NCBI RefSeq assembly: GCF_028368935.1 | Contig: NZ_JAQNDK010000001.1 | Location: 2,914,001-2,978,000, forward strand | Direction of reading: 5' to 3' | DNA: 64,000 bases | Source of the DNA: Sorangium aterium | GTDB lineage: Bacteria > Myxococcota_A > Polyangia > Polyangiales > Polyangiaceae | Shown here: piece by piece, positions 38,178-44,630 of the stretch | Position numbering within the stretch: the stretch's first letter is position 1 | How the letters are laid out: every line of letters begins with the position of its first letter | Translations under genes and position numbers: made by a program | The notes under the pieces: generated by a model | The model's input: only the letters and a program-made list of their open reading frames with translations | Database searches by the model: none | What the model was told of the DNA's origin: nothing

Positions 38178-38489
38178 TGCAGTTGTCTCCGGTTGGCTCG
38201 TTCCGTCTTCGACGACCGCCTCGTGCACACCCCAGGCCACACGTGGCTGTGCAGCGCAGGTCCGGCGGGCTGCGCCCTGCGCCGCACCGGCGGCCGCGAC
38301 CGAAACCACGGCGCCGCTCGCACGTAGCTCGGACATGGAACCCATGGAACCGAGGCGCCGAGCGGGCAGGCGAGCCAGGGCGATGACCCCGATCTCCCTT
38401 CCCGGGCGCCGGCCTTCCTGTTCAAGTGGAGACCGCCGCGCGCCCTCGCGCGCGGGCGCGCAACAACTCGAGAGATGCAGGAGGCGAGC
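38178..38489. promoter_or_regulatory. Divergent region between the OmpA-like and YceI-like genes
   Basis: No gene on either strand. It contains the inverted motif GCCACACGTGGC around 38238-38249 (5-bp arms, AC in the middle) and a site AGGAGG just before the YceI-like start. Promoters for both genes must lie here, but no box stands out. Confidence 0.35.
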
Positions 38490-39326
38490 GTGAAGACGAT
38501 CCGGACAAGGACCTTGCTCCTCCTCGCGCTCGCGGCCGCCGGCCTGGGCGCGGCCGCGTGCCAGGGGGAGCAGCCGAGCCTCGCGCCCGCCGCGACAGAG
38601 CTCAAGGCGCCGGAGCCGAAGGCGCCCGCCGCGGCGGCCTTCGCGATCGACCGCGCGGGCAGCAAGGTCGAGCTCGTGATGGATGCGCCGCAGGAGAAGA
38701 TCCGCGGGCGGATCGCGGGCGCCGCCGCGGGGACGCTCCAGGTCGACCCCGCCGACATCACGAGGACGACGGGCCTCATCACGGTCGACCTCTCCACGAT
38801 CGAGCTCTTCCAGACCGCCGTGGGCGACGACGGCAAGCCCGGCGAGGAGAAGAAGAGCGACCTGCAGAACCAGCACGCGCGCACCTGGCTCGAGATCTCG
38901 AAGGACACGCCCGACGACGTCCGGGCGAAGAACGAGAAGGCCCAGTTCGCGATCCGGTCGATCTCGACCTCCGGCGAGAAGGACCTGTCGAAGCTGTCCG
39001 GCGCGGAGCGGACGGTGACCGTCACGGCGTCGGGCGACCTGCTGCTGCACCAGCGGCAGTCCCCGAGGACCGTGGAGCTCATCGCCACGTTCAGGTACGA
39101 GGGCGACAAGCCCGCCAGCGTCACCGTGAAGACGGCGAAGCCGTTCCCGGTGGGGCTCGCCGAGCACGACGTCCGCCCGCGCGAGGCGTTCGGCAAGCTC
39201 GCCCAGAAGACGCTCGAGGTGCTCTCGCCCAAGGTCGCCAAGGAGGCGTTGGTGACGCTCGAGCTGACCGCGACCGCCGGCGCGGCCCCCGCGGCGCCGG
39301 CGGCAGCGGACGGCGGCGCGCGGTGA
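38490..39326 (+). CDS. YceI-like lipoprotein
   Basis: A 278-residue predicted lipoprotein (signal with lipobox GAAAC near residue 25). The mature part reads as a YceI-like lipocalin fold: FAIDRAGSKVELVMDAPQEKIRGRIAG at the start, ITRTTGLITVDLSTIELF, HARTWLEI, DLLLHQRQSPRTVELIATFRYEG and VTVKTAKPFPVGL. YceI proteins bind long-chain isoprenoids and are often near stress or metal-response genes. The start is set at GTG 38490 rather than the ATG at 38475, because AGGAGG at 38479-38484 is ideally spaced and would otherwise lie inside the gene. It precedes the bufferin-like cluster by 177 bp and may share its regulation. Confidence 0.8.
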   Translation: MKTIRTRTLLLLALAAAGLGAAACQGEQPSLAPAATELKAPEPKAPAAAAFAIDRAGSKVELVMDAPQEKIRGRIAGAAAGTLQVDPADITRTTGLITVDLSTIELFQTAVGDDGKPGEEKKSDLQNQHARTWLEISKDTPDDVRAKNEKAQFAIRSISTSGEKDLSKLSGAERTVTVTASGDLLLHQRQSPRTVELIATFRYEGDKPASVTVKTAKPFPVGLAEHDVRPREAFGKLAQKTLEVLSPKVAKEALVTLELTATAGAAPAAPAAADGGAR

Positions 39327-39433
39327 GCGCGGCGCGCCGCCCGCGAGTGAGCCGTTGCGGCGACGCAGCGGCTCTGAGATGACACGGCGGTCCGGAAGCC
39401 GCCGGGAGCCGGATCACGCCTGTGCCCGCCGGA

Positions 39434-39484
39434 GGGCGCAGGCCCGTCGAGACGACAACGGTGGGCGCAGGCCCGTCGAGACGA
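39434..39484. promoter_or_regulatory. Two direct repeats upstream of the RiPP precursor
   Basis: GGGCGCAGGCCCGTCGAGACGA occurs, in two halves, at 39434-39455 and again at 39463-39484, 29 bp apart, 19 bases before the precursor's ATG. The spacing of roughly three helical turns could mark tandem sites for an activator or ECF-type promoter elements. No -10 box is obvious. Confidence 0.5.
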
Positions 39485-39503
39485 GAACCAGAGGAGCCAC
39501 ACG

Positions 39504-39917
39504 ATGCTGTCGAAGAAGAGCATTTACGAGACCCTCGCCGCGTTGAGCGCCGGCGCCATGGTGATGAGCGGCTGCGCCGGCGCGCAGGCGCCGGTCAACG
39601 CGAGCGAGGTCCCCGCAGAGCAGACCGCCCCCGCCGCCCCGGCCGAGCCCGCGTCGGCGCCCGCGCCGACCGAGGCCGCCTCCGGCGACGCCGCCGCGGG
39701 CGCGAACGTCCCCGCCGCCCCGGCCGAGCCCGCGCCGCCGAGCGACGCGCAGTCCGCCGCGACCTCGCCGAAGGTCGCCCCGACGGCCACCCCGGCGGCC
39801 ACGGCCGCGCCGCCCACGCCGCCCACCGCCGCCCAGGCCAAGCCCGGCGCCAAGAAGACGGGCGCCGCCGGGAAGAAGCCCGGCCACGCGGGCTGCGGCC
39901 AGGGCACCTGCGGCTGA
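39504..39917 (+). CDS. Lipid-anchored bufferin-like RiPP precursor
   Basis: A 137-residue precursor-like protein. Residues 1-23 are a lipoprotein signal with Cys24 in the lipobox MSGC. Residues 25-118 are a Pro/Ala-rich tether with a repeated APAEPA motif. The last 18 residues are basic and Gly-rich and end in AGCGQGTCG (Cys131, Cys136). Cys-Gly repeats at the C-terminus resemble the EGxCG-type modification sites of MNIO-processed RiPP precursors such as bufferins, but no DUF2282 domain is present. The MNIO gene follows by 31 bp. The likely product is a surface-anchored peptide with one or two modified cysteines that bind copper. The ATG at 39504 has a GAGGAG site. This identification is inference from context. 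Confidence 0.7.
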
Positions 39918-39948
39918 TCGCGGCCCCCCGCGCCCTCCCCGTACCTCC

Positions 39949-40830
39949 ATGACCGGCAGCGCGCTCACCGGCGTCGGCCTCGGGCTCCGATGGGAGTTCC
40001 TCGACGAGGTGCTCGCGGCGCTCGACGCGCCCGATCGCGGCGCGCGCGACGCGGCGCTGCCCGTCCCCTTCTTCGAGCTCTCCCCCGAGAACTACATGCG
40101 GCGCGGCGGCTACTTCCCCGCCGCGATCGGGCGCGTCCGGGAGCACCGCCCGATCCTGACGCACGGGCTCACCCTGTCCGTCGGCGGGCTCGATCCGCTC
40201 GACGCCGGCTACCTGCGCGCGCTCGGGGGGTTCCTCGAGCGGCTCGATCCCCCCTTCCACAGCGACCACCTCTGCTTCTCCGGGGTCGACGGCGCGTTCC
40301 TCCACGACCTCCTGCCGCTCCCGCACACGTCCGCGGCCGCCGCCCACGCCGCGGCCCGCATCCGCGAGGCGGAGGAGCGGCTCGAGCGCCCGATGGCGAT
40401 CGAGAACATCACGTACTACCTGGTCCCGGGCCGCGCCTCGCTCGACGAGGCCGACTTCCTCGTCGAGGTGCTCGAGCGCGCCGGCTGCCGGCTCCTCCTC
40501 GACGTGAACAACGTCTACGTCAACGCCCGGAACCACGGCTTCGACCCGATCGCGTTCCTGGAGAAGATCCCTCCCGAGCGCGTGGCCGCGATGCACGTCG
40601 CGGGGCACGAGTGGCGCAACGACGCGGAGGTCCTCGTCGACACGCACGGCGCGCCCGCCATCGCCCCGGTGCTCGACCTGCTCGCCCGCGCGGTCGCGCG
40701 GACCGGGCCGGTGCCGGTCGTGCTCGAGCGGGACAACGACGTGCCGCCGCTCGGCGCGCTGCTCGCCGAGCTCACCGAGGTCGAGGCGGCGTACCGGCGC
40801 GGGCTCGCCGCGCGGGAGGCGCGGGCGTGA
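39949..40830 (+). CDS. MNIO (DUF692) peptide-modifying iron oxidase, BufB-like
   Basis: A multinuclear non-heme iron-dependent oxidase of 293 residues, the family of MbnB (methanobactin), TglH and BufB, which convert peptide cysteines to heterocycles. The iron ligands sit in order: ELSPENYM (Glu43), [10 protein letters not shown] (His72), FHSDHLCF (His104, Asp106, His107), IENITYY (Glu152, Asn153), LDVNNVYVN (Asp185), [11 protein letters not shown] (His216, His220), VDTHGAP (Asp231, His233) and [11 protein letters not shown] (Glu260). All expected ligands are visible. It is placed 31 bp after the precursor and overlaps the partner gene by GTGA. The likely substrate is the C-terminal cysteine motif of that precursor. 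Confidence 0.9.
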
Positions 40831-41786
40831 GCGCAGCGCGCGAGGCGGGCGAGACGCGCGGGACGTGCGAGACGCGCGGGACGTGCGAGACGCGCGAGAC
40901 GTCGAACGCGCCGCCGCCGGAGCTCGCGGCGCTGGAGCGAGCGCTCCAGCGGAGCGTGACCGCGCCGGACGGCGAAGCGATCACGGCCGATCCACGCGCG
41001 TGGCTCGCCCGCGCCGGGCTCGAGGGGCCGGACCTCGAGGCGATGGCCGCGCTCCCGCCGAAGCGGCTGCTGCTCTACCGGAGCCTCATCCGTCGCGGGC
41101 TGATGGGCGCGATCCGCGCCGGGATCCCCCGGACCGCGGCGCGGCTCGGCGAGCGGTTCGAGGCGGACGTGGCGCGCTTCATCGAGGGGGAGCCGCCCCG
41201 GTCGCGCTACCTCCGCGACGTCGCGTTCGAGTTCGTGGGCTTCGCGGCGCCGCGCTGGGCCGGGGATCCGGAGGTCCCCGCGTACCTCGCGGATCTCGCG
41301 CGCCACGAGCTGGCCGCCTTCGCGGCGGCGTGCGCCGAGCAGGACGAGGAGGTCGCCGCGGGCGGGGCGTCAGGGCCGCTCGGCGACGAGGCGCCGGGGA
41401 CGCCGCGCCATGAGGCGCCGGGGCCCTTGGGCGAGGAGCTGTCGCTCGACCGGGGGGCGCGCTTCCAGCGGGCCGCGGCGCTCGTGCGCTACGAGCACGC
41501 GGTCCACAGGCTGCAAGGCGACGAGTCCGCGCGCGACGTGCCGGCGCGCGAGCCCACGCGCCTGCTCGTGTACCGCGACGCCGCGCACGACGTGCGCTTC
41601 CTCGAGCTCACGCCGCTCGCGGCCGAGATCCTGGGCCGCCTCCTCGCGGGCGCCGCGCTCGGAGACGCCGTGGTCGCGGGCTGCGCCGCGCTGGGACACC
41701 CGGTCGACGGGCCGGTGCTGGAGAGCACCGCGGCCCTGCTGAGCGACCTCGCCGAGCGCGGGGCGCTCCTCGGGCCTTCGCGATGA
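40827..41786 (+). CDS. BufC-like partner (DUF2063) of the MNIO enzyme
   Basis: The recognition and delivery partner expected beside an MNIO enzyme, 319 residues. After an odd N-terminal run ([19 protein letters not shown], from an 18-bp DNA repeat) residues 30-140 show the DUF2063 pattern: [62 protein letters not shown] Gly/Pro-rich linker follows. Residues 235-319 form a winged-helix-like domain ([29 protein letters not shown] and [17 protein letters not shown]), probably the leader-peptide binding part. The GTG at 40827 overlaps the MNIO stop (GTGA), with GGGAGG upstream. The extra N-terminal repeat has two Cys, which is unusual for the family. Confidence 0.8.
40851..40904 (+). repeat. 18-bp tandem repeat in the partner gene
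   Basis: Three copies of GAGACGCGCGGGACGTGC (the last reads GAGACGCGCGAGACGTCG) at 40851-40868, 40869-40886 and 40887-40904 encode the repeated peptide ETRGTC near the N-terminus of the BufC-like protein. Expansion or contraction would stay in frame. Confidence 0.85.
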
Positions 41787-42517
41787 TCGCCGGCGCGCAG
41801 ACGGTGTATGCCGTCAGGACCGCCATGGACGAGCTCGCCCTGAACGAAGCGATGGACCGGTACGCGTGCGGCGACGCGCGCGCGTTTCCGGAGCTGCACC
41901 GCGCGCTCGCGGCGCGCCTCCTCGCGTACCTCACCCGCATGAGCGGCTCGGAGACGCTCGCGGGCGACCTGACGCAGGAGACGTTCCTGCGGATGCACCG
42001 GGCCCGATCGAGCTTCGCCCGCGGCGGCGCCGTCGCGCCGTGGGCCTACGCCATCGCGCGCAACGTCTACCTCGATCACGCGCGCGCCCAGAAGCACCGC
42101 GGCACCGAGCGCCTCCCGAGCGATCCCGGCGCGGAGCCGCCAGACGCGCGCGGCGCGGACGCGGAGGCGGTCGCGATCGCCTCCGAGACGGCGCGGGCGG
42201 TGGAGCGGACGCTGGCGAGCCTCCCGGCGTCGCAGCGCGACGCGTTCATCCTCCTGCGGTACGAAGGGCTGAGCGTGCAGGACGCCGCGGCGGTCCTGGG
42301 GACGACCACGAGCGCGGTGAAGCTCCGCGCGTTCCGCGCCTACGAGGCGCTGCGGGCGGCGCTCGAGGAGCTCAAGCGGCGGCCCGAGGCGGACCGCGGC
42401 GCGGGCAGGGGCGCGGAGGAGGGGAACGACGACCGGCCCGCGACAACGAGACCGGAGCGGAGCGGCCGCCGCGGCAAGGGGCAGGCAGGCGTGCGCGGAG
42501 GTGCCGATGGTGAATGA
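41783..42517 (+). CDS. ECF-family RNA polymerase sigma factor
   Basis: A 244-residue extracytoplasmic-function sigma factor. Region 2: [32 protein letters not shown] then [15 protein letters not shown]. Region 4: [27 protein letters not shown] followed by the recognition helix [19 protein letters not shown] disordered, basic and acidic C-terminal tail of about 45 residues is longer than usual. The ATG at 41783 overlaps the partner gene's stop (ATGA); a second ATG at 41825 also has a family-like start ([14 protein letters not shown]). Its gene overlaps the NrsF-like gene, so the pair is coexpressed. It is expected to direct transcription of the precursor, MNIO and partner genes. Confidence 0.9.
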
Positions 42518-43187
42518 GAGCGACCTACTGAAAGGGATGGAGGAGATCCCCGATCCCGCGGCCCACCTCGCCGCCCGCCCGCCGCCCGCCGTGGCCAAGG
42601 CGCCGGCCGAGCCGTCGCTGACGCGCCCGACGCGTGAGCGCCGCTCCTGGAGCGCGCTCCTGGCCGGGCTCGGCTGGATCCTGCTCGTGAGCTGGTGGGA
42701 GGGCTTCCGCGACGACCTCCCCTCTCTCCGGGTCGCCGTCCCGCTCGCCGTCACGGCGGCGCTCTCCGGTCTCGGCCTGCTGCTCGCGCTAAGCCCGCGC
42801 GCCCGGGGCCTGCCGGCCGGTGTGAGGGCGATCCAAGCGCTCGTCGTCGCGGTGCCGGCCGGGTTCCTGGCCGCGGCCGTCGCGACGTCGCCCATGGCCG
42901 ATCCGCCGGTGCCGCTGGCGACGCACCTCCGGTGCGTCGCCAGCGCCGTCGGCACGGCGGTCCTGCCGTTCACGCTGGCGGCGCTCGTGCTGCGCCGCTC
43001 GTTCCTGTCGGCGCCGGCGTGGCGTGGCGCCGCGATAGGAGCCCTGTGCGGCCTCGGGGTGGTGGTCGGCATCGGGACGCACTGCGACATCGACGATCTC
43101 CTCCACATCGCGTTCGCCCACGGCGTGCCCATCGCGGCCGGCGCGCTCCTCGGCGCCGCCGCCGGGGCGCTGCGCGGGCGAGCCTGA
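42507..43187 (+). CDS. DUF1109/NrsF-like membrane anti-sigma factor
   Basis: A 226-residue integral membrane protein with about six hydrophobic helices (LLAGLGWILLVSWW, VAVPLAVTAALSGLGLLLALS, ALVVAVPAGFLAAAVATS, AVLPFTLAALVL, AAIGALCGLGVVVGIG, IAFAHGVPIAAGALLGAAAGAL). The end matches NrsF/DUF1109, the anti-sigma partner of SigF in Caulobacter, where conserved cysteines are needed for sensing. Cys143 (THLRCVAS), Cys181 and Cys193 in THCDIDD provide candidates. The ATG at 42507 with GGAGG upstream overlaps the sigma gene by 11 bases. A GTG at 42501 is also open. The role is likely to hold the sigma factor at the membrane until metal or oxidative stress is sensed. Confidence 0.8.
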   Translation: MVNESDLLKGMEEIPDPAAHLAARPPPAVAKAPAEPSLTRPTRERRSWSALLAGLGWILLVSWWEGFRDDLPSLRVAVPLAVTAALSGLGLLLALSPRARGLPAGVRAIQALVVAVPAGFLAAAVATSPMADPPVPLATHLRCVASAVGTAVLPFTLAALVLRRSFLSAPAWRGAAIGALCGLGVVVGIGTHCDIDDLLHIAFAHGVPIAAGALLGAAAGALRGRA

Positions 43188-43343: not shown

Positions 43344-44630
43344 ATGCAGCGCGCGCTCCTCTTTCTGGCGGCAGGGCTGTGGCTCGGATGCGGCGGCTCC
43401 GGCGCCGGAGCCGCGAACGACGGCGCCACGACGGGCGTCAGCGCCGGCGGCGGTGGCGGCGCGAGCCAGGGCGACGGCGCGAGCGTCAGCAGCACGAGCG
43501 CCAGCAGCGCGAGCGGCGGCGGCGCGGGCGGCAGCGGTGGAGCGGGCGGCAGCGGCGCGGGGGGCGGCGGCTCGCAGGCCGAACGCTCGTTCGTGGTCTA
43601 TGTCGGCAGTCACGAGGGGCTCTTCGTCTTCCGCCTGGACGACGCCGACGGCGCGCTCTCGGCCGTGCAGGGCCCGCTCGACGCCGAGATGAACCCGACT
43701 TTCCTCGCCGTCGACCCCGCGCACAAGCATCTCTTCGCGGCGAACGAGCTGAACGAGGTGGACGGGGAGCTGTCGGGCGCGGTGAGCGCGTTCCGGATCG
43801 ATCCCCAGGGCGGGACGCTCGAGCTCGTCAACAGGGCCTCCTCGAAGGGCGCGGGCCCCGCCCACCTGTCCACGGATCGCTCCGGGCGCTTCGTCCTCGT
43901 CGCCAACTACGCCGGCGGGACGGCGGCGGTGCTCCCCGTGGGCCAGGACGGCGCGCTCGGCCAGGCGGCCTTCGACGTGTCCTTCGGCCGCCGGGCGAGG
44001 TCGCACCACGCCATGACCGATCCGGCAAACCGGTTTGCGTTCGTCACCAACCTCGGGCTCGACGAGATAACGCAGCTCACCTTCGACGCGGACACGGGCC
44101 AGATGGAGCCGAACGACCCGCCCGCCCTCTCGCTCCCCGCGGACACGACGCCTCGGCACCTCGAGTTTCACCCGAACGGCCGGTTCGCCTACGTGATCAA
44201 CGAGTCTGCCGGCTCGATCACCACCCTGAGCTACGATCCGTCGCGCGGGACGTTCACGGCCCTGGCCACCGTCTCGACCTTGCCCGACGGCGCGAGCGCC
44301 GAGGAAAACGCCTCCGCCGAGGTCCAGGTGTCCCCGTCGGGCAAGTTCGTGTACGGGTCGAACCGCGGCCACGACAGCATCGCCATCTTCGCGGTCGATC
44401 CCGAGCGGGGCACGCTCACGCCCGCCGGCCATGCCTCGACGCAGGGCATGACGCCGCGCCATTTCCAGATCTCGCCGACAGGCAAGCTGATGCTCGTCGC
44501 GAACGAGGAGTCGGGGAACATCGTCGCGTTTCACGTGGACGAGGCGACGGGCGCCCTCGAGCCGACAGGCCGTGTCACCGAGGTCCCCGAGCCCACGTAT
44601 GTCGGGATCGTGGCCTTGCCGGACAGGTGA
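43344..44630 (+). CDS. Secreted 6-phosphogluconolactonase-like beta-propeller lipoprotein
   Basis: A 428-residue lipoprotein: lipobox LGC at residue 16, then a Gly/Ser/Ala linker to about residue 75. The remainder is a seven-bladed propeller of the Pgl lactonase family (PF10282): FVVYVGSHEGLFVFRLDD, NPTFLAVDPAHKHLFAANE, AHLSTDRSGRFVLVANYAGGTAAVLPV, TPRHLEFHPNGRFAYVINE, VQVSPSGKFVYGSNRGHDSIAIFAVD and TPRHFQISPTGKLMLVANEESGNIVAF. Cytoplasmic Pgl proteins hydrolyse 6-phosphogluconolactone, but the signal and linker place this one outside, so the substrate is unknown. The ATG at 44344-type repeat context is avoided by the clear AGGAGG before ATG 43344. It precedes a repeated 55-bp segment. Confidence 0.8.
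   Translation: MQRALLFLAAGLWLGCGGSGAGAANDGATTGVSAGGGGGASQGDGASVSSTSASSASGGGAGGSGGAGGSGAGGGGSQAERSFVVYVGSHEGLFVFRLDDADGALSAVQGPLDAEMNPTFLAVDPAHKHLFAANELNEVDGELSGAVSAFRIDPQGGTLELVNRASSKGAGPAHLSTDRSGRFVLVANYAGGTAAVLPVGQDGALGQAAFDVSFGRRARSHHAMTDPANRFAFVTNLGLDEITQLTFDADTGQMEPNDPPALSLPADTTPRHLEFHPNGRFAYVINESAGSITTLSYDPSRGTFTALATVSTLPDGASAEENASAEVQVSPSGKFVYGSNRGHDSIAIFAVDPERGTLTPAGHASTQGMTPRHFQISPTGKLMLVANEESGNIVAFHVDEATGALEPTGRVTEVPEPTYVGIVALPDR

Follow-up and report, generated by a model that had tools for sequence, protein, structure and literature searches.

A conserved myxobacterial MNIO operon with a lipoprotein-type precursor, a sigma-NrsF switch and a YceI-like companion gene

Several described systems in which an MNIO oxidase and a partner protein modify a ribosomally synthesised and post-translationally modified peptide (RiPP) resemble an operon of the myxobacterium Sorangium aterium that is the subject of this report. 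It lies in a 64,000-nt stretch of contig NZ_JAQNDK010000001.1 (positions 2,914,001 to 2,978,000, forward strand), called the window here, from which all positions are counted. The bufferins Buf1 and Buf2 (PMC12452194) are encoded in the same A-B-C order, sigma factor and NrsF genes stand in some Buf1 clusters, and lipoproteins are predicted to make up about 16% of the Buf2 bufferins. Captophorins of the EGKCG group, among them fontiphorin, oxazolin and gonophorin (PMC12668002, PMC13419390), carry EGKCG repeats; two repeats are the minimal substrate of the enzyme pair FonBC and lose 8 Da, whereas one repeat is left unmodified (PMC12668002), and the groups in oxazolin have been reassigned as 5-thiooxazoles (PMC13419390, PMC12668002). 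Lipidated MNIO products are known in lipo-DybA and lipo-NedA, the latter a lipidated oxazolin of the DAG-RiPP type that loses 12 Da over three motifs (PMC12636315). On the regulatory side, SigF-NrsF of Caulobacter (PMC3511200) and BcrS-AbcS of Brucella (PMC8315932) combine a two-Cys DUF1109/NrsF anti-sigma factor with a GxAAC...CGxA-type promoter and have an MNIO-type operon or methionine sulfoxide reductase (Msr) genes as targets.

The S. aterium operon begins with a gene for a short lipoprotein, read as the precursor, and continues with an MNIO oxidase, its partner, an extracytoplasmic function (ECF) sigma factor and an NrsF-like anti-sigma factor (Table 1). The operon is real and conserved; lipid-anchored MNIO products were already known, and what is new is a probable variant of them in a myxobacterium, which has a switch of its own and a YceI-like companion gene. 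A preliminary description of this DNA had given the order, coordinates and overlaps of the five genes, which were confirmed on re-reading, with domains over the Pfam cut-offs. What is supported of its interpretation is a RiPP operon of the MNIO and RiPP recognition element (RRE) type, with a lipoprotein-like precursor outside DUF2282 and, next to it, a pair of the SigF-NrsF kind. Its suggestion of an undescribed product format falls because lipidated captophorin-type RiPPs have been published (PMC12636315), as have the predicted lipoproteins among Buf2 (PMC12452194).

The precursor combines a lipobox (MSGC, Cys24), a PAEPA-rich stretch and a tail with Cys131 and Cys136. It has no Pfam match, NCBIfam gave noise alone (E 0.14 and 0.59), and the HvfA/KCGExKCG_twice models NF050188 and NF050137 left it unmatched at E up to 1; in its own genome it was the sole strong match to itself, with the runner-up at E 0.0098. 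The family used for comparison consists of the best 54 loci from the MNIO match list, window included (identities 49-100%). In 51 of the 54, the MNIO is preceded by a gene that ends in a CGxxxC tail, and this tail is kept in three loci that are cut by contig ends (L042, L046, L094). The stricter form CGxG[TSG]C fits 48 of the 51 tails (49 script picks, minus one false pick, L066), with looser forms in L055, L062 and L066. All 50 tails that were scored (L055 dropped) have Gly directly after the first Cys; 48 have Gly at position +3, Thr or Ser precedes the second Cys in 48, and 34 stop one residue past the second Cys. A lipobox-like motif follows a suitable Met in 43 of 49 script-extracted precursors, the other six being three contig-end cuts, the wrong pick L066 and two that fail the start rule. 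A loose PVxAxEVP-like pattern comes after the lipobox in 36 of these 43; in 25 the region from lipobox to tail is free of Cys, whereas the other 18 contain two to seven there, often in a GSCGA-like setting, and the precursor of L057 bears EGKCGG repeats.

The tail is also the best-kept of the four precursor segments compared. Mean pairwise identity of stalk versus tail was 0.40 versus 0.65 over 40 precursors (L054, L061 and L092 excluded), 0.63 versus 0.90 among four Sorangium precursors, and 0.76 versus 0.94 among five from Polyangium, in which the signal and the stretch after it have identity 1.00. The preliminary description had considered that homologous precursors might always lack the Cys-Gly ending, and the opposite was found.

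In Cys spacing and in its C-G-x-G-x-C-G core, the tail equals two EGKCG 5-mer repeats, and the operon's enzymes have HvfB/HvfC-type proteins as their best match. Among 18 order- and class-level loci, nine carry the core upstream, several as ASCGEGSCGG in shorter lipoproteins; one such order-level relative (L117) passes the NCBIfam HvfA repeat model NF050137 (24.2 versus 19.5 bits), and the Nannocystis tail, ACGEGTCG, is of the same type. The difference from the EGKCG group is that the family has mostly Gly/Ala/Ser and Thr/Ser before Cys, not Lys. FonBC tolerates Thr or Ala before Cys (position 3) and Ala after it (position 5), but at position 1 neither Pro nor Arg is accepted; the FonBC variants noted do not include one with Gly in front of the first Cys (PMC12668002). 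Lipo-NedA shares with this locus the MNIO and partner and GxCG-type motifs, and its lipoprotein signal and anchored product correspond to those predicted here, but NedA has three EGKCG motifs, whereas here a single terminal double motif without Lys sits on a long Pro/Ala/Lys stalk, in a different phylum and with a YceI-like neighbour and an ECF promoter.

Ten MNIO residues (E43, E47, H72, H107, E152, D185, H216, D231, H233 and E260) are invariant in all 54 family loci; residues of this kind hold the iron in solved MNIO structures. This MNIO has matches in 80 of 98 family genomes, paralogues counted. In a 53-row MNIO tree, the tail loci and two EGKCG loci are separated from eight Buf1 loci, the Buf2-like enzyme of the same genome and three further own-genome paralogues with support 97/98, the EGKCG group consisting of those two rows and 12 rows falling in no group. 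The tail group needs two changes on this tree (one in 45% of bootstrap trees). Rows L156-L172 were recruited by patterns from the window MNIO that include ERDNDVPP, and this stretch was therefore not used as evidence. The N-terminal substrate motif fits the EGKCG-side placement: all 54 family loci have GLGLR and then an aromatic residue (Trp, Phe or Tyr), with slight variation before the Arg, EGKCG loci have GLGLRR or GLGLRY, and Buf1 loci replace this Arg by Lys. A role in positioning the substrate Glu has been proposed for the second Arg of the FonB motif (PMC12668002).

The EGKCG/oxazolin branch is indicated by the geometry of the tail, by the MNIO tree and by the order-level relative, and the precursor is closer to oxazolins than to bufferins. 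Membership of the bufferins was rejected, as the precursor has no DUF2282/BufA2 match in Pfam or NCBIfam and the tree groups the enzyme with the EGKCG loci, outside the Buf1/Buf2 side; DoxX was also absent from the seven window proteins scanned with Pfam. The label "bufferin-like" in the preliminary description was thus half right.

The partner contains DUF2063 and then an RRE-type domain (PF09836 38.5 and PF22106 59.6 bits, both over cut-off), the arrangement that defines PME type 1; a PDB search with it gave no match. Of 49 loci, 42 have the partner gene on the MNIO strand, and in five of six further loci searched it is convergent beside the MNIO. A convergent DUF2063 partner lies 3' of the MNIO, without overlap, in L064, L084, L090, L092 and L093.

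A promoter motif may link the operon to the sigma factor. AACC-N15/16-CGTA, usually as GAAACC, occurs at 33 sites in 28 of the 54 loci within 300 bp 5' of a YceI or precursor start, compared with at most five sites (mean 0.42) for 143 permuted motifs and at most one for spacers other than 15-16. The motif was first noticed, through a generic ECF pattern and an alignment, in some of these same loci, and the set used for testing therefore includes loci used for discovery. When the distance rule is lifted, the motif has 29 sites over 84 loci and the next-best permutation 17. The GAAACC-N15/16-CGTA form is related, not identical, to the ECF16 consensus (T/C)GTAAC-N17-CGAA (PMC8315932), and differs from that system also in preceding a YceI-like lipoprotein gene. 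A Caulobacter-type GTAAC...CGA promoter was not found in the upstream regions checked.

Across the whole genome there are 17 exact GAAACC-type sites, versus four for the reversed pattern. About ten of them lie within some 330 bp 5' of a start, and the other seven, which have no clear gene start within that distance, are probably chance matches. The genes so placed comprise the window cassette, a Buf2-like cassette on contig C3, an MsrB-MsrA fusion, two PF10282 propellers other than that of the window, an amidase and an unnamed lipoprotein, a look-alike of which adjoins the relocated sigma-NrsF pair of So ceGT47 (by eye), among others. The Buf2-like lipoprotein cassette (L197, G000:C3:1043567-1046691) encodes a 95-aa precursor with repeated NECKGKGGCK motifs, which scores 29.7 bits against BufA2, under the cut-off of 60, and has the motif about 135 bp upstream; the motif is also present at this cassette in So ce26 and So0157-2. 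The MsrB-MsrA fusion (L202, G000:C5:393375-395499) has an N-terminal hydrophobic segment and lies directly 3' of an exact motif. Msr genes belong to several ECF16 regulons (PMC8315932). One further site (L195, G000:C2:1008250-1010374) lies 324 bp 5' of a Cys/Ser-rich open reading frame (ORF) of 118 aa without a Pfam match, followed by a long YcaO-like ORF (by eye), and may be a chance match.

The ECF sigma factor has a strong match in six of six genomes of the genus, its own included. The NrsF-like protein has nine overlapping hydrophobic windows, read as about six segments. Its Cys145 and Cys195 were matched by eye to the two Cys conserved in other NrsF proteins, and both are present, again by eye, in four of four operons; their Caulobacter counterparts are C131 and C181, alteration of which raises the regulon (PMC3511200). 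We infer that the window sigma factor reads the GAAACC-N15/16-CGTA promoter. CarQ-CarR of Myxococcus is a DUF1109 system whose targets are also activated by copper (PMC8156234), which fits a possible copper signal here and is no proof of one.

A YceI-like gene lies upstream in 30 of the 49 family loci that have at least 2 kb of upstream DNA, and likewise at the Nannocystis loci. The protein scores 23.5 bits against PF04264, slightly under the cut-off of 23.7, but its AlphaFold2 model (mean predicted local distance difference test score 87.9) resembles structures of the YceI type, with BcnA of Burkholderia cenocepacia as the top match (E 1e-8). In one Sorangium genome (L177:3523-3915, G094:C847), a YceI-like gene missing its middle part lies immediately 5' of sigma-NrsF, and the orthologous MNIO is on another contig; this arrangement is a trace of the cassette's break-up.

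Gene content, the conserved tail, the enzyme grouping and the promoter motif with its other sites were computed here; thiooxazole chemistry, lipidation, metal binding and inducer are inferred from characterised relatives. On this basis the operon is likely to make a RiPP that belongs to the oxazolin branch of captophorins, is tethered to a membrane and probably binds copper; copper as the metal is less certain than the mechanism as a whole. Transcription would begin at the ECF16-like promoter 5' of the YceI-like gene. In the cytoplasm, the partner would bring precursor and MNIO together, and Cys131 and Cys136 would be turned by the MNIO into 5-thiooxazoles, with a predicted loss of 4 Da each and 8 Da in total. 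The modified protein would then exit by Sec, be diacylated at Cys24 and be cut by signal peptidase II, leaving two heterocycles at a membrane, borne by a flexible stalk that is rich in Pro/Ala and Lys and spans about 100 residues. Under the sorting rule of E. coli lipoproteins, if it applies here, Ala at residue +2 would direct the protein to the outer membrane. The product is probably a 5-thiooxazole metal sink, which could take up excess copper or another soft metal. NrsF would restrain the sigma factor until envelope stress frees it, and the freed sigma would turn on both this cassette and the other one for a lipoprotein metallophore, along with the YceI-fold lipoprotein and the repair of methionine sulfoxide.

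A number of observations weigh against this mechanism. The window precursor fits no HvfA, BufA or DUF2282 model in Pfam or NCBIfam; its tail lacks Lys before Cys and has His and Gln at the two Glu positions of EGKCG, and Ala stands at the second of these in 26 of 50 family tails, a change that lowers FonBC turnover (PMC12668002). A tail-type precursor is missing at three of the 54 loci (L070, L077 and L086; another locus in the genome of L077, L056 in G041, carries the tail), and nine of the 18 order- and class-level loci lack the core in the stretch searched. Both enzymes are under their NCBIfam equivalog cut-offs, the MNIO for HvfB (276 versus 360 bits) and BufB (271 versus 310 bits), and the partner for the HvfC model (90 versus 142 bits). 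On the regulatory side, 26 of 54 loci have no exact motif near the called start, and the Buf2-like cassette lacks it in two of four other Sorangium loci and in the sole locus of another genus checked. The precursor's own promoter, intact in So0157-2 and So ce26, is decayed in the window strain, where a 29-bp direct duplication adjoins it between the YceI-like and precursor genes; the precursor is therefore predicted to be read from the YceI promoter. The sigma-NrsF pair stands inside the operon in only four of 49 loci and is unlinked in three other Sorangium genomes, and the link between regulator and cassette is thus one of motif more than of position. In an incomplete genome of the genus (G019), sigma-NrsF is kept, and neither the precursor nor an orthologous MNIO was found. 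Caulobacter SigF, in addition, answers to chromium and cadmium (PMC3511200).

If the lipoprotein were an ordinary anchored two-Cys metal or redox protein, with the MNIO acting on something else, it would join the non-substrate lipoproteins that stand beside MNIO genes in clusters V-IX (PMC12636315); we hold this to be highly improbable, since a tail gene precedes the MNIO in 51 of 54 loci and the tail is kept as the stalk drifts, neither precursor nor orthologous MNIO was found in the incomplete G019 genome, and within 700 bp upstream, the region inspected by eye, no other ORF with a Cys pair recurs. An enzyme that does act on the tail might still install something else, or modify one Cys alone, giving an oxazolone-thioamide, another four-electron product or a Cys-Cys ring. 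The MNIO is below all equivalog cut-offs seen, and the tail departs from EGKCG at several positions. The substrate pocket also differs, since every one of the 54 family loci has an aromatic residue (Trp, Phe or Tyr) where FonB has Arg16, and the residue that follows the catalytic Asp is variable. The MNIO-PME1 pairs characterised so far nevertheless install 5-thiooxazole (PMC12668002), the product to which oxazolin has been reassigned (PMC13419390), and a different modification is accordingly judged rather improbable.

The product might also serve against hypochlorite or photo-oxidative stress instead of copper, with the tail sacrificial or redox-active and the regulator CarQ-CarR-like. This is unlikely, and it is the shared motif before the MsrB-MsrA fusion of the same genome that speaks for it, together with the hypochlorite response of the Brucella ECF16 pair (PMC8315932) and the role of Myxococcus CarR as a DUF1109 anti-sigma factor in the light response, although copper also activates the CarQ-CarR targets (PMC8156234). 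Captophorins generally bind copper (PMC12668002), and Caulobacter SigF, which controls CC3254-3257 and responds to chromium and cadmium, has genes that are uninduced by reactive-oxygen generators (PMC3511200). A tethered, probably copper-binding 5-thiooxazole product remains the preferred reading.

Table 1 Features of the operon and its surroundings, with positions in the 64,000-nt window
Feature	Position	Strand	Evidence and remarks
ECF16-like promoter GAAACC-N15-CGTA	38302..38326	+	148 bp 5' of first YceI start codon; sole window match, 0.03 expected
YceI-fold lipoprotein, 283 aa from ATG	38475..39326	+	alternative GTG start 38490; PF04264 and AlphaFold2 model
Decayed precursor ECF promoter, AGCC...CGCC	39406..39430	+	So0157-2 and So ce26: AACC...CGTA
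Direct duplication, 29-bp period	39434..39491	+	copies begin at 39434 and 39463; absent from three aligned relatives
Precursor lipoprotein gene, 137 aa	39504..39917	+	sequence reading and family comparison
Lipoprotein signal sequence, ends at lipobox Cys24	39504..39575	+	sequence reading; lipobox MSGC
Tail AGCGQGTCG, predicted MNIO target Cys131/Cys136	39888..39914	+	family tail conservation
MNIO oxidase	39949..40830	+	PF05114 302 bits (cut-off 25); PDB 3bww E 7e-53; tree
PME-type 1 partner, DUF2063 and NGO1945_C (RRE-type)	40827..41786	+	GTGA overlap with MNIO; Pfam
ECF sigma factor	41783..42517	+	ATGA overlap with partner; Pfam, Sigma70_r2 52.5 and r4_2 48.9 bits, over cut-offs
NrsF/DUF1109 anti-sigma	42501..43187	+	GTG start, 17-base overlap with sigma gene; PF06532 42.3 versus 26.8 bits
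Seven-bladed propeller lipoprotein (PF10282)	43344..44630	+	Pfam; downstream of cassette

All features listed are on the + strand of the window. The host genome measures 13.47 Mb and has seven PF05114 matches, and the closest relatives of the window MNIO among named records are those of Sorangium cellulosum strains (best 89% identity). Five Sorangium loci, that of the window among them, have the PF10282 gene 3' of the cassette, and it also follows sigma-NrsF in G019; it is missing after the relocated sigma-NrsF pairs of L175-L177. It is a possible regulon gene that would stand outside the RiPP chemistry. An anti-phage role was set aside, since neither precursor nor MNIO has a PADLOC match. Elsewhere in the genome (L080, C4:834147-843938), another MNIO (C4:839647-840438) is preceded by two near-identical 39-aa ORFs ending in CHCCGYVNDE, possibly a further precursor type.

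Among the literature matches listed, none described a captophorin lipoprotein from a myxobacterium or a link between a YceI gene and an MNIO; the promoter motif itself was not searched. The landscape paper notes hundreds of unclassified signal-peptide precursors, and its main text, in the portion available, has neither "Myxococc" nor "YceI" (PMC12452194); the available portion of the Microbulbifer paper treats EGKCG repeats without the word lipoprotein. The DAG-RiPP preprint (PMC12636315) mined precursors of 50-160 aa, which could include the window precursor. In the literature consulted, the characterised MNIO substrate from Myxococcota is ArlA of Archangium, which is ChrH-type (PMC12636315).

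The operon would place lipid-anchored captophorin-type products in myxobacteria. It suggests that the smallest natural captophorin core is a single double motif with which the stalk terminates, and its promoter would tie metallophores to a YceI-type lipoprotein and methionine-sulfoxide repair, as an anchored alternative to diffusible copper buffers. It is possible, though doubtful, that Polyangiaceae and related myxobacteria have a metal-stress regulon that spans the envelope and is under an ECF16-like sigma factor, with stalked-tail and Buf2-like lipoprotein metallophores and a YceI-fold, lipocalin-type lipoprotein as its members, such that a tethered, non-diffusing 5-thiooxazole brush would capture copper at the outer membrane and the lipocalin would handle a lipophilic partner of that stress.

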